From contig NZ_JAVDDV010000003.1 in the NCBI RefSeq assembly GCF_030848565.1, positions 62,001 through 126,000 of the forward strand: a stretch of DNA of 64,000 nt. Reading direction: 5' to 3'. How positions within the stretch are numbered: the first letter of the stretch is position 1; each line of letters begins with the position of its first letter. Source of the DNA: Natronolimnohabitans sp. A-GB9. GTDB taxonomy: Archaea; Halobacteriota; Halobacteria; Halobacteriales; Natrialbaceae. Below are positions 6,248 through 64,000 of this stretch, piece by piece. The translations under genes were made by a program, and so were the position numbers. Below the pieces are notes generated by a model. That model saw only the letters and a program-made list of their open reading frames with translations, searched no databases and was not told the DNA's origin.

Positions 6248-6290
6248 CAACGCGACGGCGATCGGCGGGACGTGACGACAGGGGACCGTA

Positions 6291-7784
6291 TCAACAGGCG
6301 TGCTCGATTCGCTCGTCTGCGATCGGGTCGCCGACCGGGCCATCCGCGTCGACCGGCTGATCGACCCGATAGATCCGCACCGCTTCGAGGTCGCGGTCCG
6401 ATCGCTCACAGACCGTCGTCGCTGCGGCCGCGTAGTGGTGCTCGTCCGCGTACCGGAGCTCGGTTCCGTATCGGTGCCAGAGCGTCGTCGGATACGTCTC
6501 CGCGGCGTCGGGCGGTCGATCGAACGAGATGTCGCCGCCGTCGATCGTGTCGACCGCCTCTCCTGACTCGAGTTCGCCCGCGACGACGTACCAGGAGGAG
6601 GCATCGGGCGGGTTCGGCGCGAAGAAGGCCCAACTCGCCTCCGAGAGCGCCTCGTCGACGTCGGGCTGGGGGGCGTCGACGCCGACGGTCGCCGCGTGCC
6701 AGACTCCGATAAACAGGAGAAATCCTACGAGTATCGCGGCGCTGCTGGCCCGGAGACTGCGACGAATTTTGGGCCGTGATTCGAGAACCGGCTGGATACC
6801 GACTCGAGCGCGATCGCCGACGTTTGGCCAGATCTGTTGCCCCGCCAGCGGCTCGAGCGATCGGACGCGCTCGTCTATGCGGTCCCAGACCGACGGGGGG
6901 AGAAAGAGCAGGAGGCCGGCGATCATGACGAACGGGAAGATCCCCAGCCGCATCGTCGCGGCCAACCCGAGATGGGCGGCGACGAAGGCTGCGACGAGTG
7001 CGATCCGCGGACGCCCGGTGTAGACGACGAGAAACACCGAGACGGTGAGCAAAGCGACCCAGAGCCAGTTGGCTGCGGCGAGCAGCGTCGACTGCTCGGC
7101 CAGGAACGGACCGAGCCCGACGATGTACTCCTCGAGGTAGAATATCCGCGAGACCGCGTCACCGGCCATCCAGGCGTCGCTCTGGTACTTGAGAACGGCG
7201 TTGACCGCGTAGATGGCGGTGAAGTGGGCGAGCAGCGTCGCCGTCGCGAGCGAGCAGACCCGCTGATCGCCGTCCGACCTCTGACTGGCGTCGATCGCCC
7301 ATCTGGCGTCCAGTGGGAGAAACAGCCCGAGGAAGAGAAAGCTGAGCAGGATCGTGTCGCCACCGTTGACCAACAGCGGGTTCCGGGCGTGCAGCGAGGC
7401 CAGGAGGACGAGCGAGACCGCAGTCGCGAGTCGCATTCGGTAGCCGACGAGTAGGCAGACGGCCGCGAAGGCGGCGACGACGAACAGCAGCGCCTGGACC
7501 CACGCCGAGCCGGCTATCGCGTGCAGCGACAGCGAGGCAAACGGCGGGTACGCCGCCGCGAGCGCCTCACGGGGAAGAACGCCGGCGTCGGTGTAGAAGT
7601 CGATCAGCCCCGGCGCTCGATAGCCGAGCAGGTCGGCGAGCAACAGGAATCCAAGCGCGATCCGGAACGCCGCCAGTGCCCGCAGATCGATCCCCAGTCG
7701 TGGCTTGACGATCGCGTGCGCCGACGCGAGCAGCGACTCGACCCGATCGGAACGGCCCGACCGAGAGCGACCGTGGCCTGTCAT
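6291..7784 (-). CDS. HTTM domain membrane protein
   Basis: 497 residues, multi-spanning. The region from about residue 30 to 310 matches the HTTM pattern (membrane domain of vitamin K-dependent gamma-carboxylase relatives): an early Arg-containing helix (LAAFRIALG), DFYTDAGVLP, a strand of LLVGYRMRLAT, and NGGDTILLSFLFLGLFLP. The C-terminal ~120 residues after another helix form a probable extracytoplasmic domain with WYVVAGELESG. Haloarchaeal HTTM proteins have no established reaction. The promoter has a TATA-like box (CTTATACT) about 30 bases upstream and an inverted repeat next to it. Confidence 0.82.
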   Translation of the reverse strand: MTGHGRSRSGRSDRVESLLASAHAIVKPRLGIDLRALAAFRIALGFLLLADLLGYRAPGLIDFYTDAGVLPREALAAAYPPFASLSLHAIAGSAWVQALLFVVAAFAAVCLLVGYRMRLATAVSLVLLASLHARNPLLVNGGDTILLSFLFLGLFLPLDARWAIDASQRSDGDQRVCSLATATLLAHFTAIYAVNAVLKYQSDAWMAGDAVSRIFYLEEYIVGLGPFLAEQSTLLAAANWLWVALLTVSVFLVVYTGRPRIALVAAFVAAHLGLAATMRLGIFPFVMIAGLLLFLPPSVWDRIDERVRSLEPLAGQQIWPNVGDRARVGIQPVLESRPKIRRSLRASSAAILVGFLLFIGVWHAATVGVDAPQPDVDEALSEASWAFFAPNPPDASSWYVVAGELESGEAVDTIDGGDISFDRPPDAAETYPTTLWHRYGTELRYADEHHYAAAATTVCERSDRDLEAVRIYRVDQPVDADGPVGDPIADERIEHAC

Positions 7785-11663: not shown

Positions 11664-12461
11664 ATGACCACACCAGGCACTGAAGCACGACTCGATCGAA
11701 TCGGTACAGACGGCTCCTACGTGATCGTTCCCATGGATCACGGCATCACCATCGGTGCCGTCCAGGGGCTGAAAGACATCGAATCGACGATCGACGGCGT
11801 CACCAGCGGCGGTGCAGACGCCGTCCTCACCCAGAAAGGGATCGCGTCCCGCGTCCACGAGAACAAAAACGGCAAGGGTTACATCGTCCACCTCAACGGG
11901 TCGACGACGATCGGCCCCGACGAGAACGACAAACGCATGACCGGTACGGTCGAGGAGGCCGTTCGTGCCGGTGCCGACGCTGTCTCCTTCCACATCAATG
12001 TCGGTTCGGACCACGAACCAGACCAGATCTCCCAGCTCGCCGAGGTCACCGAGGCGGCCGACCGGCTCGGGATGCCGGTACTCGCGATGGCCTACGCCCG
12101 CGGCCCGGGCGTCGACCCTGAAGATCCCGAAGCGCTCGGTCACGCAGTTCGCCTCGCCGAGGAACTCGGCGCCGACATCGTCAAGACGGGCTACAGCGGC
12201 GACGCCGAGAGCTTCCAGCACGTCGTCGAATCGACGCGGCTGCCGGTCGTCATCGCCGGCGGTTCGAAAGGGACCGACCGCGAGACGGTCGAGATGGTCC
12301 GTGGCGTCATGGACGCCGGCGGCGCCGGCGTCTCGATGGGCCGGTCGATCTTCCAGCACGAGGACCCCGAAGCAATCGCTCGCGCAGTCGCCGGTGTCGT
12401 CCACGACGACCTCCCGACCGAGGAGGCACTGGCCCGGGCCGGGCTGGCACTCGAGGCCTAA
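11664..12461 (+). CDS. 2-amino-3,7-dideoxy-D-threo-hept-6-ulosonate (ADH) synthase
   Basis: 265 residues, class I aldolase-like barrel. It performs the first step of the archaeal route to dehydroquinate that replaces DAHP synthase, using aspartate semialdehyde and a 6-deoxy sugar phosphate. Expected residues are present: Asp25 in PMDHG, Tyr in MAYARGPG and the Schiff-base Lys174 in DIVKTGYSG, with a phosphate loop IAGGSKGTD. Its partner, DHQ synthase II, is encoded at 17555. Only 24 bases separate it from trpA, so it probably belongs to the trp transcript and shares its control. Confidence 0.92.
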   Translation: MTTPGTEARLDRIGTDGSYVIVPMDHGITIGAVQGLKDIESTIDGVTSGGADAVLTQKGIASRVHENKNGKGYIVHLNGSTTIGPDENDKRMTGTVEEAVRAGADAVSFHINVGSDHEPDQISQLAEVTEAADRLGMPVLAMAYARGPGVDPEDPEALGHAVRLAEELGADIVKTGYSGDAESFQHVVESTRLPVVIAGGSKGTDRETVEMVRGVMDAGGAGVSMGRSIFQHEDPEAIARAVAGVVHDDLPTEEALARAGLALEA

Positions 12462-12482
12462 TACGATCTCCTGTCGTCACTG

Positions 12483-12540
12483 CCCGCCGATCGCCGACCC
12501 CGCCCTGGCGATCGGCGGGAGCTCGGTACAGCAGTCCGTA
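12483..12540 (+). repeat. 58-bp hairpin element, copy 1
   Basis: A perfect 13-bp inverted repeat (CCCGCCGATCGCC / GGCGATCGGCGGG, loop 11) is followed after 3 bases by TCGGTACAGCAGTCCGTA. Three other copies of the same length occur at 13727, 33563 and 35970. It lies between two convergent genes, so the hairpin could also end transcription. Confidence 0.65.
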
Positions 12541-12564
12541 TAAGACCGGTCGTCGATCGTTATA

Positions 12565-13573: not shown

Positions 13574-13651
13574 TACTGTCGGACAGAACTATTGTGAGAA
13601 TTTGCCGCTTCCGTCCGGCGAATTCTCTTCAGTGACTTCTGTCCGGCAGTA
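13574..13651 (+). mobile_element. Short transposable element, 78-bp form, copy 1
   Basis: Terminal inverted repeats TACTGTCGGACAG / CTGTCCGGCAGTA enclose a nearly palindromic interior (GAGAATTTGCCG / CGGCGAATTCTC). Flanks are TGA on both sides (13571-13573 and 13652-13654), a 3-bp target duplication. It is about 96 percent identical to the copy at 38023. A further half-end, CTGTCGGACAGCAG, lies just upstream at 13552. No coding capacity. Confidence 0.85.
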
Positions 13652-28602: not shown

Positions 28603-28632
28603 CCGATCGTCGACTCCTGTTGTCCGACAGTA
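28603..28632 (-). mobile_element. Truncated relic of the 107-bp transposable element form, at the pyk stop codon
   Basis: Read from the pyk stop, TACTGTCGGACAACA is followed by GAGTCGACGATCGG, matching the outer ~30 bases of the 107-bp elements at 36052 and 63464. The opposite end is gone. The TGA stop of pyk sits where the target duplication would be. Confidence 0.55.
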
Positions 28633-30390
28633 TCAGGCGCGATCGGATCGCTCGCCGATCGTCCCGCCGTAGACGACGCCGCGTTCGGCGTCGAGGGTCA
28701 CGACGTCGCCGTCGCCGAACTCGTCGCGGTCGGCGCCGCTGATCATCGGGACGTCCATCTCGCGGGCGACCAGCGCCGGATAGCCGGTCAGCCCTCGCTG
28801 GGCGTCGATGATGCCACCGATCTTCGTCAGATCGCCGTCGAACTCCTCGTCGAACTCCGCCGGCAGCGACAGGATCGCACCCTCGGGGACGGCCGAGAGG
28901 TCGCCGTCGGTGAGTTCGACGACGGGGCCGGTCACCCGTCCGTCGACGACGACCCGCCCGGTCGTCAGCGCCTCCGCAGCGACGTGGACTTTCAGCATGT
29001 TCGTCGTGTTCGCCCCCTCGAGTTCGGTCATCATCCCACAGAGGACGACGACGGTATCACCGCTGTCGGCGACGCCGGCATCCAAGGCGGCCTGGACGGC
29101 CTTTTCGACGACGGCGTCGGCACTTTGATCCGAGACACGAGCGTACAGCGGCGTCACGCCCCACGAGAGCGCGAGTTGACGGCGCACTTCGTGGCTCTGG
29201 GTCGAGGCGACGACCGGCATGCCGGGGCGGTACTTCGCCGTCTTCAGTGCCGTGTAGCCGGACTCCGTCGCGGCCACGATGGCGTCCGCACCGATATCCC
29301 GCGCCAGGAACCGGGCCGACCGCGCCAGTGCGTCAGTCCGTGCCTCGCCCGCGGTCGGGACGCGTTGCTCGAGCAGTTCGTCGTACTCCGCGGAGCCTTC
29401 GACCTCGCGGACGATGCTGTCCATTGCATCGACGACCGCGACGGGGTGGTCCCCGATGGCGGTCTCGGCCGACAGCATCACCGCGTCGGTCCCGTCGAGG
29501 ACGGCGTTGGCGACGTCGGAGGCTTCCGCCCGCGTCGGTCGGCGCGCGTGGACCATCGAGTCGAGCATCTCCGTCGCCGTGATCACCGGCGATCCCGTGT
29601 TGCGACACTTCCGGATGATCCGTTTCTGGATCATCGGGACGTCCTCCATCGGACACTCCACGCCCAGGTCTCCCCGGGCGACCATGATCCCGTAGGACGC
29701 TTCGATGATCTCGTCTAAGTTCTCGACTGCGCCCGAACGTTCGATCTTCGAGATGATCGGAATCTCGGCGTCTAGCTCCTCGAGCACCTCGCTGACCTCG
29801 TAGACGTCTTCGGCGTCACGGACGAAACTGGCCGCGACGAAGTCGACCTCCTTCTCGGCGGCCAGCTCGAGATCCTTGCGGTCCGACTCAGTGACGATAT
29901 CGAGATCGAGGTCGACCCCTGGGACGTTGACGCCTTTGCGACCGCCCAGTTCGCCGCCGGTCTCGACGCGCGCTCGGACGGCGTCGTCCTCGCGTTCGAT
30001 GACGGTCGTCTCGATCAGCCCGTCGTCGAGCAGGATGGTGTCGCCCGCTTCGACGGCGTCGATCGACAGTGAGAGCCCGATCGTGTCCGGCGAGACCTCC
30101 TCACCCTCGAGGAACCGGATCTCGGAGCCGGTCTCTACGGTTACCGTCTCGCCGTCCGGCAACGGCGCGGTCCGGATCTCCGGGCCTTGCATGTCTACCA
30201 TTACTGCGACGGGCTCCTCGCGTGCTTCGTCGACAGCTCGCACGCGATCGATCAACTCGGCACGATCCGCTCGGCTCCCGTGGCTCGCGTTCAACCGCGC
30301 GACGGACATTCCCGCATCGGCGAGCTCCCGGATCGTCGTCCGATCGCTCGAGGCCGGCCCCAACGTACAGACGATCTTCGCGTTTCGCAT
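28633..30390 (-). CDS. pyk: Pyruvate kinase
   Basis: 585 residues. Converts PEP and ADP to pyruvate and ATP. The barrel shows KIVCTLGPAS, SVARLNASHG, MVDMQGPEIRT, SKIERSGAVENLDEI, MVARGDLGVECP and TATEMLDSM. After the usual C-domain an extra ~115-residue phosphohistidine-like domain follows, GGIIDAQRGLTGYPALVARE, in which the His of PEP-utilising enzymes is missing. The promoter has a perfect palindrome, TACTCGATATCGAGTA, 42-57 bases upstream. It is divergent from the GYD gene. Confidence 0.96.
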   Translation of the reverse strand: MRNAKIVCTLGPASSDRTTIRELADAGMSVARLNASHGSRADRAELIDRVRAVDEAREEPVAVMVDMQGPEIRTAPLPDGETVTVETGSEIRFLEGEEVSPDTIGLSLSIDAVEAGDTILLDDGLIETTVIEREDDAVRARVETGGELGGRKGVNVPGVDLDLDIVTESDRKDLELAAEKEVDFVAASFVRDAEDVYEVSEVLEELDAEIPIISKIERSGAVENLDEIIEASYGIMVARGDLGVECPMEDVPMIQKRIIRKCRNTGSPVITATEMLDSMVHARRPTRAEASDVANAVLDGTDAVMLSAETAIGDHPVAVVDAMDSIVREVEGSAEYDELLEQRVPTAGEARTDALARSARFLARDIGADAIVAATESGYTALKTAKYRPGMPVVASTQSHEVRRQLALSWGVTPLYARVSDQSADAVVEKAVQAALDAGVADSGDTVVVLCGMMTELEGANTTNMLKVHVAAEALTTGRVVVDGRVTGPVVELTDGDLSAVPEGAILSLPAEFDEEFDGDLTKIGGIIDAQRGLTGYPALVAREMDVPMISGADRDEFGDGDVVTLDAERGVVYGGTIGERSDRA

Positions 30391-36051: not shown

Positions 36052-36158
36052 TACTGTTGGACAACACGATTCGACGATCGGTCGCGCGACTGCGGCCGTC
36101 CCGAGGGTGACGGCCGCGAGTTCGCAACCGACGGCTCACTGACTGCTGTCCGACAGTA
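36052..36158 (+). mobile_element. Short transposable element, 107-bp form, copy 1
   Basis: Ends are TACTGTTGGACAACA and GACTGCTGTCCGACAGTA. Flanks are TTA on both sides (36049-36051 and 36159-36161). The interior is a long imperfect palindrome with GCGGCCGTC / GACGGCCGC. About 95 percent identical to the copy at 63464. No coding capacity. It lies between metG and the divergent transporter gene. Confidence 0.85.
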
Positions 36159-37968: not shown

Positions 37969-38022
37969 CGGCTTGCTCTCGTCGCGACGGAAAACGTGTG
38001 TCGGTTCCGTCGCTCGAGGTTA

Positions 38023-38100
38023 TACTGTCGGACAGAACTATTGTGAGAATTTGTCGCTTCCGTCCGGCGAATTCTCTTCAGTGACTGCTGTCCGACAGTA
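38023..38100 (+). mobile_element. Short transposable element, 78-bp form, copy 2
   Basis: TACTGTCGGACAGAACTATT at the left end and GTGACTGCTGTCCGACAGTA at the right; 3 differences from the copy at 13574 over its whole length. Target duplication TTA at 38020-38022 and 38101-38103. The right-hand TTA is, on the minus strand, the TAA stop codon of the next gene, which therefore stays intact. Confidence 0.88.
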
Positions 38101-38319
38101 TTAGTTCCCGCCGCAGGTGTCGATACCGGCGACGTGATACAGCGGACACAACTGGATCGTTCCCGTCCCGAGCAAGACGAGACCGACGAGCAACGCGACG
38201 GCGCCGACGACCGTCCCGAACGCGAGGAACTCGCCGAGGACGGCGACACCAGCGATTGCGAGTACTGCACCGAGTCCGATTCGGACCACCCGATCGATCG
38301 CACAGACGTTCGTCTCCAT
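38101..38319 (-). CDS. YgaP-like small membrane protein (DUF2892)
   Basis: 72 residues. It opens METNVCAIDRVVRIGLGAVL, the usual DUF2892 start, with two membrane helices (about 12-30 and 33-52) and the typical end CPLYHVAGIDTCGGN with two Cys. In other organisms the domain is found alone or fused to rhodanese. Its own role is unknown. Its TAA stop is supplied by the duplicated target of the adjacent element. Confidence 0.86.
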   Translation of the reverse strand: METNVCAIDRVVRIGLGAVLAIAGVAVLGEFLAFGTVVGAVALLVGLVLLGTGTIQLCPLYHVAGIDTCGGN

Positions 38320-38390: not shown

Positions 38391-38467
38391 TACTGCCGAC
38401 CAGCACTCGTGTGCGCAGTCGCCGCTCGTGTCCAGCCAACCCGTTTCGGTGACTGCTGTCCGCAGTA
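38391..38467 (+). mobile_element. Short transposable element, 77-bp divergent form
   Basis: Ends TACTGCCGACCAGCA and TGACTGCTGTCCGCAGTA, with matching TCA flanks at 38388-38390 and 38468-38470. The interior is unrelated to the other two forms. It lies between the DUF2892 gene start and the mfnA stop. Confidence 0.75.
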
Positions 38468-38478
38468 TCAGTTCACCA

Positions 38479-39564
38479 TCAGTCGTCGCTCGCGACCGGC
38501 ACGCTCGCACGCACCTCGAGTCGGTCCAGATCGCCGACGAACGACGCCAACATTTCGCGGGTGACGTGGGGCATACACACGACGCGCAACTCCCCGGTCC
38601 CCGTCCGGGAGATGCGCCAGCCTTTGGCCCGTAACGCGTCGAACGTCGACCGCGGCACGTCGGCTGCGACCAGCGGCAGCGTCGGCTCGACGACATCGTA
38701 GCCCCGTTTTTCTAAGGCGTCGGCGAGCCACTCGGCGTTGTTCTGGGCGCGGACGTACTGGCGTCGGTAGCCGTCGGGCCACAGTTCGTCCATCGCGGCG
38801 ACGGCGCTTGCGACGCCCGCACCCGACCGGGTCCCCGTCAGCGTCGCCTGCGAGGTCGACTCGAGGTAGGGCGTGTCGACGGCGAGTTCGTCGAGCAACG
38901 TCGACGAACGGGCGAGCAAGCCGCCGGCGGGGATGGCGGCCTGGCCCATCTTGTGTGGATCGATCGCCATCGTGTCGACTGGCGCGTGGCCGAAGTGCCA
39001 CTCGTAGTCGGTAAACGGCAGGACGAACCCGCCCCAGGCAGCGTCGACGTGGAGCATGGCGTCGACCGACCGGGCGATCTCGCCCAGTTCCGGAATCGGA
39101 TCGACGCGGCCGTACTCGGTCGTCCCGGCGACGCCGACCACCAGTGCCGTCTCCTCGTCGACGGAACTGCGGACGGCCTCGAGATCGGCTCGGTGTGTCT
39201 CGTCGGTCGGAACGATTCGCAACTCGACGCCGAGGACGTCGGCCGCTTTCTGGAAGCTGAAGTGGGCCGACTCCGGCATGACGACGTTCGGCGTCCGCGT
39301 CGCGACGCGGTTGCGGGCGATCCGCACCGCCTGAATGTTCGCTTCCGTCCCGCCGCTTGCGATGTAGCCGGCAGGCTCCTCGAGGCCGGCGACCTCCCCG
39401 AGCGTCTCGATCGCCTCCTCCTCGAGGGCCGACACCGACGGATACGTTCCCGGATCGCCGGGATTGGTCGCGAGAAACCGCTCGGCCGCCTCGCGCGCTA
39501 CCGGGTGTGGCTCCGTACACATCGACGAAAGCACCCGGTCGAACGCTTGCGGCTCGATTTGCAT
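38479..39564 (-). CDS. mfnA: Tyrosine/aspartate decarboxylase, MfnA type
   Basis: 361 residues, PLP-dependent group II decarboxylase. The PLP lysine is in [17 protein letters not shown]; other family parts are [31 protein letters not shown] and HVDAAWGGF. Haloarchaea lack methanofuran, so the likely reaction here is L-aspartate to beta-alanine for coenzyme A, as proposed for archaeal MfnA homologues; tyrosine decarboxylation is the alternative. ATG 39564 is used; ATG 39585 adds seven residues. Confidence 0.9.
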
Positions 39565-45834: not shown

Positions 45835-45883
45835 GACGGTCGCAGTCCTGTGGCCGATCGGTGACTCGTGCTGTCCGACAGTA
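45835..45883 (-). mobile_element. Half copy of the 107-bp transposable element form
   Basis: Reading from the NYN gene end, TACTGTCGGACAGCACGA is followed by bases aligning to the left half of the 107-bp elements up to CTGCGACCGTC, about 50 bases, then similarity stops. It lies two bases beyond the NYN stop codon. Confidence 0.6.
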
Positions 45884-45885
45884 TA

Positions 45886-46383
45886 CTACAACAGGAACGT
45901 CTCGTGGCGCTCGCCGAGATCGAGAAACGAGTCGGCGGCCTCGATCAGTTCCTCGGCGGTCGAGGACTCGAAGGCCATCACTTCGACGCGAACACCCTCG
46001 TGGCGCAGGTGCGAACAGAGCCGCGAGAAGTCCCCATCGCCGGTACAAAGGACGATCGTGTCGACGTGGTTCGCAAGCGTCACCGCGTCGAGACTCATCC
46101 CGACGTCCCAGTCGGCCTTTTTCGTCCCGTCGGCGAAGGTCTTGATATCCTTGATCTTCGGCTCGAACCCGATGTCGACCAGTGCCTCGAAGAAACTCTC
46201 CTCCTCGGGGGCCTCCGCGCGGATCACGTACGCGATTGCACGGGTGAGCTGGCGGTCCTGGACGGCCTTCTCCAGCAGCGCGGAGTAGTCGATGTTTCGG
46301 CTATGCAGGCTCTGGGCGGTGTGATAGAGGTTCTGGGCGTCGACGAGGACGGCGACGCGCTGTCCTGGATGTATCTCGGTCAT
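45886..46383 (-). CDS. NYN-domain protein (LabA/PIN-like)
   Basis: 165 residues. PIN-like nuclease fold: VAVLVDAQNLYHTAQSL at residues 10-26 carries the first acidic residue, KADWDVGMSLDAV the second, and LCTGDGDFSRL the last pair; all are retained, so RNase activity is plausible. The C-terminus ends soon after the last strand. A TTTTTAAC box about 30 bases before the ATG suggests a leaderless message. Confidence 0.9.
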   Translation of the reverse strand: MTEIHPGQRVAVLVDAQNLYHTAQSLHSRNIDYSALLEKAVQDRQLTRAIAYVIRAEAPEEESFFEALVDIGFEPKIKDIKTFADGTKKADWDVGMSLDAVTLANHVDTIVLCTGDGDFSRLCSHLRHEGVRVEVMAFESSTAEELIEAADSFLDLGERHETFLL

Positions 46384-63463: not shown

Positions 63464-63570
63464 TACTGTTGGACAGCACGATTCGACGATCGGTCGCGCG
63501 ACTGCGGCCGTCCCGAGGGTGACGGCCGCGATTTCGCGACCGACGTCTCACTGACTGCTGTCCAACAGTA
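63464..63570 (+). mobile_element. Short transposable element, 107-bp form, copy 2
   Basis: Ends TACTGTTGGACAGCA and TGACTGCTGTCCAACAGTA; 5 differences from the copy at 36052. Left flank TGA (63461-63463), right flank TTA (63571-63573), probably one target-site duplication with a point change. The right TTA is the TAA stop of the UspA-domain gene on the minus strand. Confidence 0.85.
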
Positions 63571-64000
63571 TTACTCGAGTGCCTGTCGCCGTCGTCGACT
63601 GAATCTCCGGATTCGATCGCGTAGCTGTCGCCACAGCGCCTCGGAGACGTTCTGGTGGCGTTTCACCATTACCACCGTACTGTCGGCCTCGCGACCGATC
63701 GTCTCGGGGATCTCACCGACGAGCACTCGCCGCAGCAGTCCGCTCTCGGCCGCACCGACGATCGTCACGTCGTGGTCGCCGGTTCGCTCGAGAATCGTCT
63801 CTTGTGCCTCGCCTTCGAGAACTGTTTGCTCGACCGACGTGACGACACCCAGTTCCGTCGAGGTCTGGGTAAGCAACTCGCGGGCGTCGGCGACGCTTTT
63901 CTCGTCGTGATTGGAAACGACAGTAAGCAGTTCGACGCGAGCGTGTGGATGCGGGCGATCGAGCCGGCGACTCGAGCAGCAAGGTCGGTGTTCGGACCGC
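63571..64000 (-). CDS. UspA-domain protein, C-terminal part; start outside the window
   Basis: The frame is open to the right edge; 142 codons are visible with TAA at 63571-63573. A universal stress protein domain end is clear: TVVSNHDEKSVADARELL, ERTGDHDVTIVGAAESGLL, and GEIPETIGREADSTVVMVKRH, in place of the usual GS loop. A basic tail (RQLRDRIRRFSRRRRQALE) ends it. In haloarchaea this ending is common in fusions of an APC-type permease with UspA domains, so the missing N-terminal part may be a transporter; that is inference. The stop codon overlaps a transposable element flank. Confidence 0.75.
   Translation of the reverse strand, partial: RSEHRPCCSSRRLDRPHPHARVELLTVVSNHDEKSVADARELLTQTSTELGVVTSVEQTVLEGEAQETILERTGDHDVTIVGAAESGLLRRVLVGEIPETIGREADSTVVMVKRHQNVSEALWRQLRDRIRRFSRRRRQALE

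Follow-up and report, generated by a model that had tools for sequence, protein, structure and literature searches.

Prokaryotic MITEs such as RUP, Correia/NEMIS, and the MITEs of archaea are short and non-coding, carry inverted ends, duplicate their target upon insertion, and occur in many and mostly intergenic copies. The palindromic haloarchaeal elements described here are alike in all these respects but show a trait that the review of prokaryotic MITEs examined here does not describe (PMC10969869), in that stop codons are their commonest landing site and that the duplicate is itself the stop, which is re-used as a target. Several other systems are similar in part. REP/BIME sequences, which are mobilised by RAYT, are likewise short hairpins found near gene 3' ends at high copy number; REPs are smaller and do not duplicate their target, and identity with this group is ruled out by the exact 3-bp TNA duplication of our elements. 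A 3-bp TNA/TWA duplication is typical of IS5-family (IS1031/IS427-type) or PIF/Harbinger-like transposons, whose terminal bases differ from the TACTG and TACGG seen here, and no matching transposase was found among the 12 DDE_Tnp_1 loci of the genome, none of which has TACTG/TACGG ends or matching inverted ends. The ERIC/IRU elements of enterobacteria are about 127 bp long and duplicate TA, and De Gregorio is said to have described in 2005 that some ERICs of Yersinia overlap a stop codon or lie next to one.

ERIC/IRU are palindromic, MITE-like repeats that are co-transcribed with their neighbours and can affect upstream mRNA, and the review that describes them treats stop codons only inside elements (PMC2229807). 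These bacterial elements have other ends and no in-frame TNA duplication that makes a stop, whereas those reported here are mainly 78–80 or 106–108 bp long and duplicate TNA, which rules out that they are ERIC/IRU. The SMR-A element of Haloquadratum walsbyi shares with them the haloarchaeal host, inverted ends (at a length of about 110 bp), tens of copies, and a strong target preference, but it inserts without target duplication into palindromes of IS605-type elements/PATE (PMC3119063); TNA duplication and the location at stop codons or in intergenic DNA thus rule out this identity as well. Stop codons as targets are absent from a review of prokaryotic MITEs (PMC10969869), in a literature search that covered mainly papers available without subscription, and the TIR sequence found no match in the text of papers.

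Elements and gene ends in the window

The window, i.e., the whole 64-kb stretch of DNA that was analysed, contains a 78-bp palindromic element with perfect inverted ends of 13 bp that folds into a hairpin of -30.1 kcal/mol (z -5.05). It is flanked by TTA at 38020 and 38101, and a preliminary description had proposed that the right copy forms the TAA stop of a DUF2892 gene on the minus strand; both coordinates and reading are correct (Table 1). A protein scan of the genome contigs with the DUF2892 protein and an Rfam search of the window each returned no match. On the other side of this gene, a diverged family-A relic at 38391–38467 sits a few bases away from the stop codon (TGA) of a pyridoxal-dependent decarboxylase gene at 38479 and may be an old, shifted insertion.

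Altogether, an element flank is the gene end in 5 of the 63 genes called in the window. The earlier reading that a UspA-domain gene ends in the right TTA of the element at 63464 holds, though the duplication is imperfect there, with TGA on the left versus TTA on the right. Similarly, the TGA of the pyruvate kinase gene (pyk) adjoins the relic at 28603 as proposed, with one mismatch in the relic's end. A third case fared less well, because the stop of the NYN gene does lie two bases from a relic, but it is a TAG and hence no possible TNA target, and the relic is near rather than at the stop, so that this gene is no example of stop-codon insertion. Two further examples that had gone unmentioned involve a second family, one at the end of an aldolase gene (12461) and one at the end of an HTTM-domain gene (6291). 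The element beside the aldolase gene was read directly; its ends are too diverged for the strict scan.

One relative (G015, L201–L203) contains three near-identical copies of a related third MITE, which measures 167 bp, has TACTGTCGGACAG ends, and is flanked by a TGA duplication; a repeat there that resembled an IS end turned out to be this element. One of the three copies sits at a stop codon, and positions 2395–2560 of the window hold a decayed member.

Table 1. Elements, target duplications, and adjoining genes in the 64-kb window.
Feature	Positions	Strand	Details
Palindromic MITE, family A, 78 bp	38023..38100		ends TACTGTCGGACAG / CTGTCCGACAGTA
Target duplication, left TTA	38020..38022		flank of 38023–38100 element
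Target duplication, right TTA = TAA stop of minus-strand gene	38101..38103	-	
Host gene, YgaP-like transmembrane (DUF2892), 72 aa	38101..38319	-	Pfam PF11127, E 8.6e-16
Family-A element, 107 bp	63464..63570		flanks TGA left / TTA right; z -10.3
Usp-like gene, TAA stop = right TTA flank	63571..63876	-	Usp 22.9 bits, cut-off 24
Family-A relic, right end directly adjoins pyk stop	28603..28632		near-perfect end, 1 mismatch
Pyruvate kinase gene, TGA stop = relic's TCA flank	28633..30390	-	
Relic end, two bases from NYN-gene TAG stop	45869..45883		no stop-codon insertion
NYN gene, TAG stop	45886..46383	-	
Second-family (TACGG) element, 79 bp	12462..12540		TAA duplicated at 12459–12461 and 12541–12543
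DeoC/LacD-type aldolase gene, TAA stop = left TAA flank	11664..12461	+	
TACGG-family relic, right half, CCGTA end then TCA	6257..6290		
HTTM-domain gene, TGA stop = relic's TCA flank	6291..7784	-	
Intact family-A copy, intergenic, away from stops	13574..13651		TGA duplication
Intact family-A copy, 107 bp, intergenic, away from stops	36052..36158		TTA duplication

Insertion at stop codons across the genome

Counts for the genome cover 2.38 Mb (55% of it, from 9 contigs in stretches), in which a home-made codon-usage method called 2281 genes. This DNA contains 140 intact copies that fall into family A (TACTG type; 87 copies with TACTGTYGGACAG-like ends, mostly 78 and 106–108 bp long) and family C (TACGG type; 53 copies with TACGGAYTGCTGT-like ends, mostly 78–80 bp long). 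Both families have inverted ends of 13–16 bp and lengths of mostly 53–108 bp, and their copies are non-coding, dispersed, and accompanied by many relics; the three copies that were folded form strong hairpins with z from -5 to -10. Of the intact copies, 123 have duplicated TGA/TCA and the other 17 TAA/TTA, and when ends were paired without any condition on the flanks, the majority of pairs still shared an identical flanking TNA. Conversely, TNA-flanked repeats with inverted ends take the form TAC...GTA in 77 cases versus 0–2 for any other end triplet, and the family-A end TACTGTYGGACA occurs 242 times in the whole genome compared to 0 times for a reversed-pattern control. By their terminal inverted repeats, the fixed 3-bp duplication, and their short, non-coding, dispersed copies, these elements are MITEs.

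Two variants of the ends deserve a brief description. Of the 153 family-C ends at stops, 46 begin with GACGG instead of TACGG (e.g., C34:90759 or C23:215986), compared to 14% elsewhere, which places a G rather than a T directly behind the stop; these ends may form an older subfamily, or the base behind the stop may be under selection. In addition, minimal repeats of 22 bp with the sequence TACTGTCGGACAGCAGTCCGTA (C1:272399, C12:211030, and C34:147376), one of which differs by a single base, consist of a family-A start fused to a family-C end and then TCA.

The duplicated TNA is the exact in-frame stop codon of a gene in 65 of the 140 intact copies (46%; 38/87 in family A and 27/53 in family C), and not one of the 140 lies inside a gene. 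Only 10.8% would be expected at stops from the non-coding and stop TNA sites with triplet type matched, and the excess has a p of ~2e-26 under this raw null and of ~1e-10 once target-motif preference is allowed for. Insertion sites favour C at -1 and A at -2, and a motif matrix trained on non-stop insertions only predicts 20–22% of copies at stops (13–14% for family A and 30–41% for family C) versus the 46% observed overall. For the TACGG family, a wide matrix (-6 to +6) raises the expectation to 41% versus 51% observed (p 0.09) and thereby nearly accounts for its excess. When the two bases before the triplet were matched exactly and the comparison set was limited to intergenic sites on the 3' side that lie 100 bp or more from any start, the odds ratio at stops was 3.85 for family A and 3.96 for family C. 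Similarly, a logistic model with flanking bases, the GC content of the 30 bp to either side, and the distance to starts as covariates lowered the stop odds from 7.2 to 3.1 (95% 2.0–4.75). On a log scale, the C-TGA motif and GC-rich composition thus account for about half of the raw excess, and the remainder goes with the site being a stop codon. The proposal that these elements insert into stop codons more often than into random TNA sites, with the duplication keeping the stop, is therefore supported by the intact-copy counts, the matched odds, and the logistic model alike, and a 3- to 4-fold excess is left after matching. Near starts, by comparison, copies are scarce, with 3 seen within 50 bp where 13 were expected. 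This shortage and the absence from genes are explained by purifying selection, which offers no explanation for why stops are occupied more often than an identical pentamer located slightly further downstream. An apparent depletion 3–25 bp after stops in a first count vanished with motif weighting and more data.

Relics were counted where an element end begins directly after the stop with at most one mismatch in 13. Such ends follow 172 of 1242 TGA stops (13.8%, or about one in seven), 24 of 507 TAA stops (4.7%), and 3 of 531 TAG stops (0.6%), the latter being a built-in negative control because TAG cannot be a TNA target. Placement is precise to the single base, given that offsets of 4–15 after the stop show only 0.1–0.7% occupancy (about 0.3%) and that, with up to three mismatches allowed, 286 of 1749 TGA/TAA genes are occupied directly compared to 2–12 genes for shifts of 1–12 bases. 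The occupied share of TGA/TAA genes is about 11% by the strict count and 14–16% by laxer ones, and it depends strongly on the last codon, with 52/195 for NAC-TGA (27%), 20/65 for NCC-TGA, and 1/111 (about 1%) for codons ending in A. The pentamer ACTGA is joined to an element end in 28% of cases at stops, 6.4% at 3'-side intergenic sites, 3.5% at other intergenic sites, and 0.1% in genes. Relic counts make the stop ratio look somewhat too high, since stop codons, unlike neutral flanks, are conserved and old flanks on the stop side survive better; this bias is small for the intact copies, whose figures are safer. Elements 1–30 bp downstream of the stop are found at 10 of 531 TAG genes versus 10 of 1750 TGA/TAA genes (about threefold, p 0.013), the one sign that hints at gene ends as such being favoured. 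The elements downstream of TAG genes (e.g., C45:210667 or C72:12196) look as if insertion had shifted to the next usable triplet.

Protein ends, repeated entry, and other haloarchaea

Orthologs without an element have the same stop position, and their protein ends align to the last residue. For example, GCC GAG TGA is found both in the relative's locus L239 and in its counterpart C12:272529 of this genome, with the element absent from one of the two orthologs. The pairs L396 versus C45:202258 and L284 versus C23:153897 are further empty sites, and the reverse case is seen at L267, where the relative has an element that is absent from C1:111248. Three bases are copied per insertion so that the stop codon survives, and these empty orthologous sites with identical protein ends corroborate the earlier suggestion that insertion leaves the proteins unchanged.

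A stop that is kept in this way is still a target and is consequently entered again. The distal triplet copy is followed at once by a second element in 14 of the 65 copies at stops, while a second element appears at other offsets in 0–1 of the 65 and beside intergenic copies on 3 of 150 sides. This stacking rate of 22% is close to the general occupancy of stops, so that no extra attraction to occupied stops is needed. Moreover, orthologs from different genera can share an occupied stop at which their elements belong to different families (L323 and C12:366416, L243 and C56:113517, L393 and C12:323242), which are independent insertions. The idea that such shared stops are hot spots was not upheld because the association is not significant when both stops are TGA (odds 2.6, p 0.12–0.17).

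The preference for stops extends beyond this genome. Among relatives within the Natrialbaceae (e.g., Natronorubrum halalkaliphilum), 28 of 51 copies are at stops with a background of 8.9%, and more distant haloarchaea (Halobellus inordinatus, H. clavatus, Halobacteriales YIM A00010, and others) have 28 of 98 copies at stops with a background of 8.7% (p 1e-8). Outside the copies that had been used to fetch these loci, relics follow 11/92 and 11/366 TGA stops compared to 1/35 and 0/145 TAG stops.

Origin and meaning of the excess at stop codons

The excess could in principle come from the target motif together with purifying selection, i.e., from a mover that reads C-TGA in GC-rich DNA and for which stops are merely the commonest harmless sites while the gene end as such is irrelevant. 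We regard this as quite possible though somewhat short of probable, given the strong preference for C/G at -1 with only ~1% of NNA-TGA stops occupied, the GC-richer flanks of intergenic insertions as well (0.60 vs. 0.535), the lack of copies in genes, and the wide matrix that absorbs most of the TACGG-family excess. However, exact five-base matching in 3'-side DNA still leaves intact copies 3.9-fold enriched at stops, seven-base matching with relics included leaves a 5.5-fold enrichment, and ACTGA is occupied at stops far more often than at 3'-side intergenic sites (28% vs. 6%). An artefact of gene calling, in which open reading frames would be called to a TNA because an element starts there, is very improbable. 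The gene calls do come from a home-made codon-usage method, but an in-frame TGA or TAA ends the frame with or without an element behind it, restriction to high-scoring genes of 600 bp or more leaves the picture unchanged (TGA 12.7%, TAG 0.3%), and element-free orthologs end at the same residue.

Alternatively, the hairpin behind the stop might be a putative transcription terminator, a role that the preliminary description had also raised, or a putative 3' mRNA stabiliser, and be retained by selection for this host function. The hairpins are indeed very stable, a tested hairpin stopped 59% of transcripts in Haloferax volcanii (a T stretch stopped 95%; PMC7237163), TGA stops are occupied somewhat more often at convergent than at tandem gene pairs (17.7% vs. 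11.7%), and elements are more frequent just downstream of TAG genes. Yet we consider such retention unlikely as the source of the excess, since copies at stops are no older than others, with no significant difference in nearest-neighbour divergence in any of three length groups. Furthermore, the T run in or after the hairpin that characterizes intrinsic T-tract terminators is missing, with T5, the efficient haloarchaeal terminator, in only 1 of 140 elements; tandem and convergent stops are hit alike apart from gaps below 20 bp; and element occupancy varies freely between orthologs. A comparison of T-tract loss next to elements revealed no difference. Retention predicts older copies at stops, but the stop fraction does not rise with element age, and about half of the raw excess is a preference for C-TGA in GC-rich DNA; insertion bias should thus contribute at least as much as selective retention. 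The preliminary description had suggested that insertion at stops may be a selected way to persist, which is plausible and in part borne out.

Taken as a whole, we find it probable that TNA-duplicating MITEs settle at stops and re-enter them, with the excess arising from insertion preference over selection. The 3- to 4-fold excess that is left would, in our judgement, most likely stem from a preference of insertion for gene ends more than from selection for hairpin function. Under this explanation, two related non-autonomous palindromic MITE families of haloarchaea insert by duplicating a TNA triplet, guided by a predicted mover that would prefer (A)C-TGA-G/C in GC-rich DNA. Copies landing inside genes would be lost, and it is at the stop codon that a C-TGA target in GC-rich, coding-like sequence could be hit harmlessly. 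The gene-side copy of TGA or TAA stays in frame as a stop with the protein unchanged, and the same triplet stays a target, with later elements entering between the gene and the older element. Judging from the 3-bp duplication, the predicted mover is most likely a DDE transposase. The targeting step is an inference, since no autonomous partner turned up in the 2.38 Mb read: a search of this DNA and the fetched loci for the same ends 500–4000 bp apart returned nothing but neighbouring MITEs paired by chance, with ordinary genes between them. More tentatively, and with somewhat less than even confidence, target choice could be built around the stop itself, with a transposase that would recognise the C-TGA gene-end boundary and duplicate exactly the three bases of the stop so that the same end can be reloaded and proteins remain untouched. 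In its logic, such a safe-harbour strategy would resemble integration in tRNA genes.

Mobile elements that live in a dense genome need places where they do no harm, and here the length of the duplication and the target make the stop codon the safe one, with single-base precision, on a large scale, and in several haloarchaeal lineages. If the excess reflects true targeting, the elements would be among the rare transposons that read a gene boundary, and with target choice built around the stop, a seventh of the TGA-ending genes would have an identical hairpin 3' end for this reason. If selection is responsible, a ready-made 3' hairpin would be common to hundreds of unrelated genes, with consequences for the way in which transcripts end in haloarchaea. 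In both cases, the element ends can be used by annotators to fix gene ends in haloarchaeal genomes.
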